Shown one piece after another: positions 53,832 through 57,690 of a stretch of DNA of 64,000 bases (position 1 is the stretch's first letter; each line of letters starts with the position of its first letter). The stretch comes from Alcaligenaceae bacterium (GTDB lineage Bacteria; Pseudomonadota; Gammaproteobacteria; Burkholderiales; Burkholderiaceae_B): contig JAJUGV010000005.1 in assembly GCA_029265795.1 (NCBI GenBank), positions 1 through 64,000 of the forward strand. Direction: 5' to 3'. The notes beneath the pieces were generated by a model. The model did no database searches. It had not been told where the DNA came from and saw only the letters and a list, made by a program, of their open reading frames with translations. A program made the translations under genes and the position numbers.

Positions 53832-55316
53832 TTAATAACGGGCTGCGTTGCGATGGCTGCGCTCGTTGCGGCGAGCTGGAGCTGCCCGGCCGGCTGGAGC
53901 GGCATTCCCTGGGCGCCGGCTGCGACGTACACCTTCACCCTGGGGTTTTCGGTCAGCAGACCATTCGGTGCGACGGTCGCTCTTCCACTCAGGCTTCGCT
54001 TCCTTGCCACGGCCGGGTTGCCACTCGCCGCGGCCCTCCGGCCGGCGATCGGTCTTCCATTCCGGCTTGCGCGCACCTTGGGGCCGTCCCTGGCCGTCGC
54101 GCCGCGTGCTGCCGTGGGAGCCACGATACCCGCCGCCACCACCGCCCGGCCGCTTGCCGAAGCTACGTTGCGGCTTGCGTTGTGGTTCGAGACCGGCGAT
54201 TTCGTCCATGGGAATGCTTCGACCGATGAAATGCTCGATGCGGCGGATCTTGTGTCGTTCCGAATGGATTGCCAAGGTGTAAGCCTGACCATTGCGACCG
54301 GCACGACCGGTACGACCGATGCGGTGAACATAGTCTTCCGCATGCATGGGAAGATCGTAGTTAAACGCGTGGCTGATGCCTTGTACGTCGATGCCGCGGG
54401 CGGCGACGTCAGTAGCAACCAGAATACGTACACGGCCACGTTGCAACATGCCCAGTGTGCGAGTGCGCTGGCGCTGGTTCATGTCGCCATGTAACGCGGC
54501 GGCGGCATAACCCTGTTCGTTCAAATAGCCGGCCAGATCGTCCGCCCCACGCTTGGTGGAGGTAAAGACAATGGCCTGATCAAGGGACGTGTCACGCAAA
54601 AGGTGATCCAGCAGACGCAGCTTGTGGGAGCCATCATCGGCGTAAAGCAGTGTCTGCTCAATGTTTTCATGGCGCTGTTTCTGGCTGGCTAGTTCCAGGC
54701 GAACCGGATTGCGCATCATGCGGGAAGCCAGCTGCGCTACCGTGCCGTCCAGCGTCGCAGAGAACAACAATGTTTGTCGCTCGGCAGGAAGGCGGGCGAT
54801 GATGGACTCGATCTCTTCAATGAAACCCATGTCCAGCATGCGATCGGCCTCATCCAGCACCAGAGTACGGACGGTCGACAGGTTGACGCGTTTGGCCTGC
54901 AGGTGATCGATAAGCCGTCCCGGCGTGGCAACCAAGACGTCCACACGGCGCGACAGCGCTTTGATTTGTGCGCCGTAGGGCATGCCGCCCACAACGGTGG
55001 CGATACGCAAGCCATTGATGCCGGCGCCATAGACACGAGTCGCGTCTGCGACCTGCAGAGCCAGTTCGCGGGTGGGCGTCAGGACCAGCACTTGGACGCC
55101 GCTGCCTTTATTGGAAGGAAGTTGCGCGATCCGGTTCAGAGTGGGCAGCATGAACGCAGCAGTCTTGCCGCTACCGGTCTGCGAGGACACCATCAGGTCC
55201 TCGCCTGCCATGGCTCGCGGAATGGCGGTTGCCTGAACAGGCGTGGGTTGGCTGAAGCCGGCACGGTCGAGCGCCGACAACAGGGTCGGGATGAGTCCCA
55301 GGGATTCAAAAGACAT
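53832..55316 (-). CDS. rhlE: DEAD-box RNA helicase RhlE with basic, Gly/Arg-rich C-terminal tail
   Basis: MSFESLGLIPTLLSALDRAGFSQPTPVQATAIP, SQTGSGKTAAFMLP, LDEADRMLDMGF, VHRIGRTGRAG. Confidence 0.95.
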   Translation of the reverse strand: MSFESLGLIPTLLSALDRAGFSQPTPVQATAIPRAMAGEDLMVSSQTGSGKTAAFMLPTLNRIAQLPSNKGSGVQVLVLTPTRELALQVADATRVYGAGINGLRIATVVGGMPYGAQIKALSRRVDVLVATPGRLIDHLQAKRVNLSTVRTLVLDEADRMLDMGFIEEIESIIARLPAERQTLLFSATLDGTVAQLASRMMRNPVRLELASQKQRHENIEQTLLYADDGSHKLRLLDHLLRDTSLDQAIVFTSTKRGADDLAGYLNEQGYAAAALHGDMNQRQRTRTLGMLQRGRVRILVATDVAARGIDVQGISHAFNYDLPMHAEDYVHRIGRTGRAGRNGQAYTLAIHSERHKIRRIEHFIGRSIPMDEIAGLEPQRKPQRSFGKRPGGGGGGYRGSHGSTRRDGQGRPQGARKPEWKTDRRPEGRGEWQPGRGKEAKPEWKSDRRTEWSADRKPQGEGVRRSRRPGNAAPAGRAAPARRNERSHRNAARY

Positions 55317-55643: not shown

Positions 55644-56885
55644 TTAGCCGGTCATTGCGGCATGGGATACCCACTGAATGGGTTGCACCCCTTGCGCGCT
55701 CAGCCAGGCGTTGGCCTGTGAAAAGTGGCGGCATCCTATAAAGGGGCGAGGCGGCCGCGATGCAGACAATGGCGAGGGGTGGTTGGCCATGAAAATCGTG
55801 TAGGCCTGACCCTTCTCTCGGATAGATGTTTGCTTGCTTTGAGCATGACTACCCCATAGCAGGAATACTTTGGGTTGTGCCGTGGCGGCCACTGTGTCGA
55901 TAAGTGCGTCAGTCACGATCTCCCAACCTTTACGGGCATGTGAGCCCGCCGCGCCTTGTTCCACGGTAAGGCTGGTGTTGAGCAACAGTACCCCCTGGTG
56001 ACTCCAGTCAGACAGGTCAGTGCGACGGCGCCGCGGCATGTCCGGGTATTCCTGCGCCAGTTCATTGAAGATGTTGCGCAGGCTGGGGGGCGTCGGGCAC
56101 CCGTCAGGGACCGAGAATGCCAACCCCTGCGCCTGGCCGGGGCCATGGTAGGGGTCCTGTCCCAGTATCACTACGCGCACGTCTTCTGGAGCCAGCTCTT
56201 CCAGCGCTCGAAATATGCGCGCTGGAAAGATCACCGCACCGTCCTGCAGCCGCTGCGCGAGAAACTCGTCCAGGCGGGCAATGGCGTCTTGTACCGCTGG
56301 TGTGTCCAATGCGGTCCGCCAACCGGGGTGTAGGCGGGCGAGCTGCCGACTGGGAAGTTCCTGCAGCCGGTTGGACGAAGGCACAGAAGACGGGGCCGGC
56401 GAAGCAGCCGGTTCGCTGTTGCCATTACCGAATGTGTGCTGCAGACTGACCTTCAATGCCATGGTGTACTCACCCTGTAGCGCTGCCAAGGCTTCATGGC
56501 GCTCTTTCCAGCTTGCCTGACTGTCTGAGTCGCGCTCCCGTTGCGGCGCCCAGATGCTATCCGGAAACCAAGGGTCGTCCTTCCAGCGGGGAATGACATG
56601 CCAATGCAAGTGAGGCGTCATATTGCCCAGCGACGCCAGGTTTACTTTGTCTGCCGCCAAAATACGGCGCTGCACACTTTCCACAACGAATACGGCCTGC
56701 ATCAGTAGTTGCTGGTCTGCCGCTTTCAAATCGCTCATTTCAGCGACATGGTGCTGCCAGATGATGCGCGTGTAGCCCGGAAGGTCGGGCTCCTGCACGT
56801 AAACCACTCTAAGTGCCTGGTTGCGCCAGATCAGCAAGCCGCCGTCTTCGACGCAGAGCCCGCATTCGTTTGGCTTTTGGGTCAT
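55644..56885 (-). CDS. ung: Fusion protein: N-terminal HIT-family hydrolase domain + C-terminal family 1 uracil-DNA glycosylase
   Basis: Single 413-aa frame: HLHWHVIPRW (HIT triad) then Pro/Ser/Ala linker then VVILGQDPYHGPGQAQGLAFSV and HPSPLSA (UDG motifs). Confidence 0.88.
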   Translation of the reverse strand: MTQKPNECGLCVEDGGLLIWRNQALRVVYVQEPDLPGYTRIIWQHHVAEMSDLKAADQQLLMQAVFVVESVQRRILAADKVNLASLGNMTPHLHWHVIPRWKDDPWFPDSIWAPQRERDSDSQASWKERHEALAALQGEYTMALKVSLQHTFGNGNSEPAASPAPSSVPSSNRLQELPSRQLARLHPGWRTALDTPAVQDAIARLDEFLAQRLQDGAVIFPARIFRALEELAPEDVRVVILGQDPYHGPGQAQGLAFSVPDGCPTPPSLRNIFNELAQEYPDMPRRRRTDLSDWSHQGVLLLNTSLTVEQGAAGSHARKGWEIVTDALIDTVAATAQPKVFLLWGSHAQSKQTSIREKGQAYTIFMANHPSPLSASRPPRPFIGCRHFSQANAWLSAQGVQPIQWVSHAAMTG

Positions 56886-56898
56886 TGTGCGGGCTGCT

Positions 56899-57690
56899 TC
56901 AGGCGAAAAACATCTCGTGGAGAGCGGCGCCCGGATCTTCTGCCCGCATGAAGGCTTCGCCCACCAGGAAGGCGTGAACCTCGTTATTTCGCATGAGTTT
57001 GACGTCATCCGGAGTGAGGATGCCGCTTTCCGTCACCACACGCTTGCCTTCCGGAATCAGAGGCAGCAGGTCGAGCGTGTTTTGCAGAGAAGTTTCGAAG
57101 TTGCGCAGATTGCGGTTGTTGATACCGACCAGCGACGTCTGAAGCTGCAGCGCAGTTTCGAGTTCGCTCCGGTCGTGCACTTCCACAAGCACATCCATGC
57201 CTAGTTCCAGCGCTACGGATTCGAATTCCTTGAGCTGGGCCAGGCTGAGCGCGGCGACAATCAACAAGATGCAGTCGGCGCCCAACGCGCGGGAATGGAT
57301 GATTTGGTAGGGGTCGACGATGAAGTCCTTGCGCAGCACGGGCAGGGAACACGCTGCACGCGCCTGACGCAGGTAATCGTACGAGCCCTGGAAGTACTGC
57401 ACATCGGTCAGCACCGACAAACATGCGGCGCCATGTGCGGCATATGTGCTGGCAATTTCGGTGGGGTTGAAGTTCTCGCGAATGACGCCCTTGGAGGGTG
57501 AGGCTTTTTTGATCTCAGCAATCACGGCGGGTTTGCCGCGGGCGATCTTGTCTTCCAAGGCGCGGCCGAACCCGCGCACGTCTTTGCGACTCTTTGCTTC
57601 TCGCAGAAGGTCGGATTCGCTTCGCATTTGGCGAGCGGTGGTGACTTCTACTTTCTTTGTTTCCAATATCTTGGCGAGAATGTCATTCAT
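56899..57690 (-). CDS. trpC: Indole-3-glycerol-phosphate synthase
   Basis: [50 protein letters not shown]. Confidence 0.97.

Follow-up and report, generated by a model that had tools for sequence, protein, structure and literature searches.

Analysis of a 64,000-nucleotide stretch of bacterial DNA (the window) revealed a minus-strand gene that encodes a HIT domain and a complete family 1 uracil-DNA glycosylase (UDG) in one reading frame. We propose, with a probability of roughly 0.75 for this reading as a whole, that its product is one bifunctional polypeptide that arose through in-frame joining of neighbouring operon genes; a bifunctional protein with independent domains is the best-supported reading. 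In one genus of Alcaligenaceae-like bacteria the fused gene has been retained by several species, and its conservation hints at a possible link between small-nucleotide chemistry and uracil repair in these bacteria, with the HIT-UDG fusion as a ready test protein for such a link. The gene, its parts and its neighbours are as follows.

55644..56885, minus strand: HIT-UDG fusion gene, 413 aa, 45.9 kDa (translation, Pfam and NCBIfam)
56544..56867, minus strand: HIT domain core, residues 7-114 (Pfam HIT; best solved relative 2oik, E 4.8e-37; conserved positions)
56592-56612, minus strand: HxHxHxx motif, HLHWHVI, residues 92-98, inside the HIT core
56439..56543, minus strand: HIT C-terminal helix, residues 115-149, ending LQGEYTMALKVSLQ, common to relatives (alignment of relatives)
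56373..56438, minus strand: linker, residues 150-171, HTFGNGNSEPAASPAPSSVPSS, variable in the alignment and predicted to be disordered
55671..56372, minus strand: family 1 uracil-DNA glycosylase, residues 172-405 (NCBIfam, solved relatives; pLDDT mostly >90)
56145-56162, minus strand: UDG motif GQDPYH
55761-55781, minus strand: UDG motif HPSPLSA
56460..56462, minus strand: internal ATG, a previously suggested UDG start, non-conserved
56899..57690, minus strand: trpC, 13 nt upstream of HIT-UDG; relatives usually carry pap between trpC and HIT
53832..55316, minus strand: DEAD-box helicase gene (rhlE-like), the downstream neighbour, kept in relatives

A preliminary description of the locus had claimed a single stop-free frame, composed of a HIT domain, a low-complexity linker and a complete family 1 UDG, that starts 13 nt after trpC, and our results agree on each point. 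Translation of the 413 codons from 56885 to 55644 encountered no stop, the Pfam and NCBIfam matches concur on the domain content, the linker is rich in Pro, Ser, Ala and Gly, and the measured distance from the trpC stop to the fusion start is the same. Upstream of 56885 the frame stays open to an ATG at 57008, but this stretch overlaps trpC.

The C-terminal half matches the Ung family over its full length. Pfam UDG covers residues 233-395 (E 1e-15), and the NCBIfam family 1 UDG equivalogs cover residues 185-396 with scores above the curated Ung cut-offs (NF003591, 303.7 bits against 237; TIGR00628, 232.6 against 185.75); Ung enzymes are also its nearest solved relatives. The window UDG shares with this family the GQDPYH water-activating loop, LLLNT and the HPSPLSA leucine loop, all intact, and differs from an ordinary Ung in that its native N-terminus and start codon are replaced by the HIT domain and linker. 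The sequence GQAQGL, earlier called unusual, proved to be normal, since 30 of the 31 distinct UDGs from the loci of the bacterial family carry Q at that position. Ung removes uracil from DNA, and from the intact motifs we infer that the UDG half does the same. The window genome encodes only one family 1 UDG, that of the fusion, together with a second UDG-superfamily gene elsewhere.

The N-terminal half is matched by Pfam HIT at residues 21-101 (E 1.6e-13; 51.6 bits against a cut-off of 21.5). H92, H94 and H96 are invariant across 12 relatives in the HIT alignment, as expected of the HIT superfamily, and residues 7-114 align end to end with 2OIK, HxHxHxx included. Whereas 2OIK, a bacterial HIT-family protein of 154 residues, stands alone, the window HIT lies N-terminal to UDG. 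A precedent of a kind is NitFhit (1EMS), in which, according to the PDB entry name, a HIT enzyme is likewise joined to an unrelated enzyme, a nitrilase; NitFhit has another partner and another domain order, however, and matches only weakly in sequence (E 0.05). Nucleotidyl conjugates are the substrates of HIT enzymes, and, judging from its family, the HIT half most likely hydrolyses small ones, for example Ap4A or AMP-X. No second HIT of this type is encoded in the window genome, which has two other HIT genes elsewhere. An AlphaFold2 model gave high confidence for UDG, low pLDDT for residues 153-169 and a helix at residues 120-152, in the region of the HIT C-terminal helix; the HIT half was modelled at low confidence because few HIT sequences were available in the alignment.

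The preliminary description had proposed a survey of the HIT plus family 1 UDG architecture. We searched 269 genomes from the family of the window genome and checked the reading frames at the loci, which recovered the architecture in six species of the genus and in a second clade of three genomes. Within the genus, HIT and UDG share one frame in six of the eight genomes (G000, which is the window genome, G001, G003, G004, G005 and G006), and the fused frame of G003 lies on contig JAJUFT010000019.1 of an independent MAG. Linker length, by one definition, is 22-56 residues, and linker sequence differs too, with a mean pairwise identity of 36%, where the HIT core reaches 70% and UDG 78%. All six are nevertheless free of stops and keep the phase; shuffling of the linkers put the chance of six stop-free linkers at 0.017, phase conservation being left out of this count. 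Every fused protein retains an intact HxHxHxx motif and intact UDG loops. dN/dS values (Nei-Gojobori, six fused pairs), which are approximate because dS is high, came to 0.12-0.27 in the HIT core and 0.06-0.15 in UDG, showing purifying selection on both halves.

These data bear directly on whether a sequencing or assembly artefact fused two separate genes. The window genome is a draft of 185 contigs with 6.5% contamination, which would allow such an error, but five more genomes of the genus have the same architecture with different linkers and the phase preserved in each; as the six assemblies are separate and their linkers all different, one common error is unlikely, and we regard an artefact as an extremely improbable explanation. 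A genuine HIT-UDG fusion, resulting from neither misassembly nor a frameshift, is thus strongly supported by the compared sequences. No whole-length match outside the family was found in order- and phylum-wide samples, in which strongly diverged fusions would escape detection, and we found no report of a HIT-UDG fusion in the open-licence literature. Long frames over UDG in many high-GC relatives were considered as fusions and rejected, as they contain no HIT. Both enzymes are ordinary, while the joined architecture appears to be new and, as far as sampled, restricted to two clades of one family.

The relatives show a clear route to the fusion, from operon neighbours through genes that overlap (by 4 nt, in one relative) to a single frame in which the downstream start is gone. 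The gene order trpD-trpC-(pap)-HIT-ung-rhlE was found in many genera, and HIT directly precedes ung as a separate gene at 17 loci or more, with 22-130 nt between the HIT stop and the UDG core. These separate pairs of related genera have the order trpC-(pap)-HIT-ung-rhlE, as at the fusion locus; unlike the single frame of the window, they consist of a HIT gene that ends in a stop and a UDG gene with its own start. G002 belongs to the genus but is unfused; its HIT stop and UDG start share 4 nt (ATGA), which is likely the precursor state of the fusion. The UDG tree placed the six fused genes apart from G002 and G007 (support 77), and G007 is best read as having lost HIT and kept ung. One fusion event would be the simplest reading, parsimonious rather than proven because supports in the concatenated tree are too low (34-40) to place G001, G002 and G007 relative to one another.

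We therefore envisage that, in the ancestor of most of the genus, HIT and the following ung, overlapping or nearly adjacent, would have been joined in frame with loss of the ung start codon, and that the flexible Pro/Ser/Ala/Gly linker would let both domains fold and act independently. The UDG may in addition have become dimeric through its HIT half, because HIT proteins are usually dimers.

A second question is whether the gene yields free UDG by internal initiation in addition to the full-length fusion. In unfused relatives the UDG ATG lies about 78-86 codons before GQDPYH, and none of the six fused genes of the genus retains this ATG. The internal start put forward earlier, an ATG at 56462 (MALKVSLQ...) preceded by AGGGTGAG, is indeed present in the window and speaks for two products, but it is not conserved: it lies inside the HIT C-terminal helix, all five fused relatives have Ala in place of its Met, and the AGGGTGAG bases encode the conserved LQGEY of that helix. 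Moreover, initiation at 56462 would give a protein of 29.6 kDa rather than the approximately 25 kDa anticipated. G006 has no in-frame ATG, GTG or TTG between HIT and UDG, so that its UDG would be made only as the fusion, and G001 has a lone GTG far upstream in the linker. The window ATG is thus probably not a start. Because the UDG ATG is lost, the ATG at 56462 is not conserved and the Shine-Dalgarno-like bases encode LQGEY, this UDG probably comes mainly or solely from the fusion; proteolysis in the linker, or weak initiation at GTG, TTG or the non-conserved ATGs of some species, may contribute.

In the second clade, G144, G145 and G158 (L142, L143 and L144), HIT reads through into UDG with an ATG kept at the usual, native UDG position, so both products may be made there, and a near relative, G213, has a stop between its HIT and UDG genes. 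This clade possibly represents a stop-loss fusion with dual products. For the window gene, taking the evidence on both sides together, we consider a full-length fusion accompanied by free UDG rather unlikely.

What the joined protein does as a unit can be approached by comparison with aprataxin, a HIT enzyme that undoes abortive ligation, also in the course of base excision repair (PMC6043908, PMC4530458). The HIT half could by analogy strip AMP from 5'-adenylated DNA after abortive ligation, with the attached UDG delivering it to sites of base excision, an idea made attractive by the action of aprataxin after abortive ligation (PMC6043908) and compatible with an intact HIT active site under purifying selection. 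However, the HIT profile matched bacterial HIT proteins, Ap4A phosphorylase and Fhit in the PDB, and none of the 27 PDB sequences matched up to E = 1 is named aprataxin. The C-terminal zinc finger of the aprataxin type is absent as well, HIT being followed by the linker and then UDG. In many relatives HIT adjoins the polyphosphate:AMP phosphotransferase gene, fitting small-nucleotide metabolism, and most members of the family have HIT and UDG as separate genes or at distant places. We accordingly find this role distinctly unlikely, and the same strong doubt attaches to the idea that the fusion is devoted to repair, with uracil excision physically coupled to HIT chemistry (AMP removal from adenylated DNA ends, or Ap4A sensing), and so plays in bacteria the part of aprataxin in base excision repair.

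Since HIT and ung were operon neighbours long before fusing, and neighbours can fuse without being functionally coupled, coupling is not implied, and the domains are probably not strongly coupled; the earlier suggestion that nucleotide or adenylate processing is coupled to base excision is possible. If the domains are uncoupled, the locus is a well-documented fusion of neighbouring genes and no more.

Several unfused UDGs near the genus (L147, L150 and L186-L189) have an N-terminal QxxLF-like motif (e.g. QVPLF, QRTLF) that resembles the sliding-clamp binding motif and is absent from the fused proteins; present in some genera only, it was considered and set aside.

The pap gene encodes polyphosphate:AMP phosphotransferase (TIGR03708), which converts AMP to ADP using polyphosphate and, as a user of AMP, would fit an AMP-releasing HIT enzyme. 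Each of the other seven genomes of the genus has it, and wherever the site is readable it immediately precedes HIT or ung (for example L134:993-2519). In G007 (L140) it is followed by ung with its own ATG, and that genome has no HIT of the fusion's type at E 1e-3. In the window genome pap is absent from the site, 56886-56898, and from the entire draft, and its recent loss would have placed HIT-UDG directly behind trpC.
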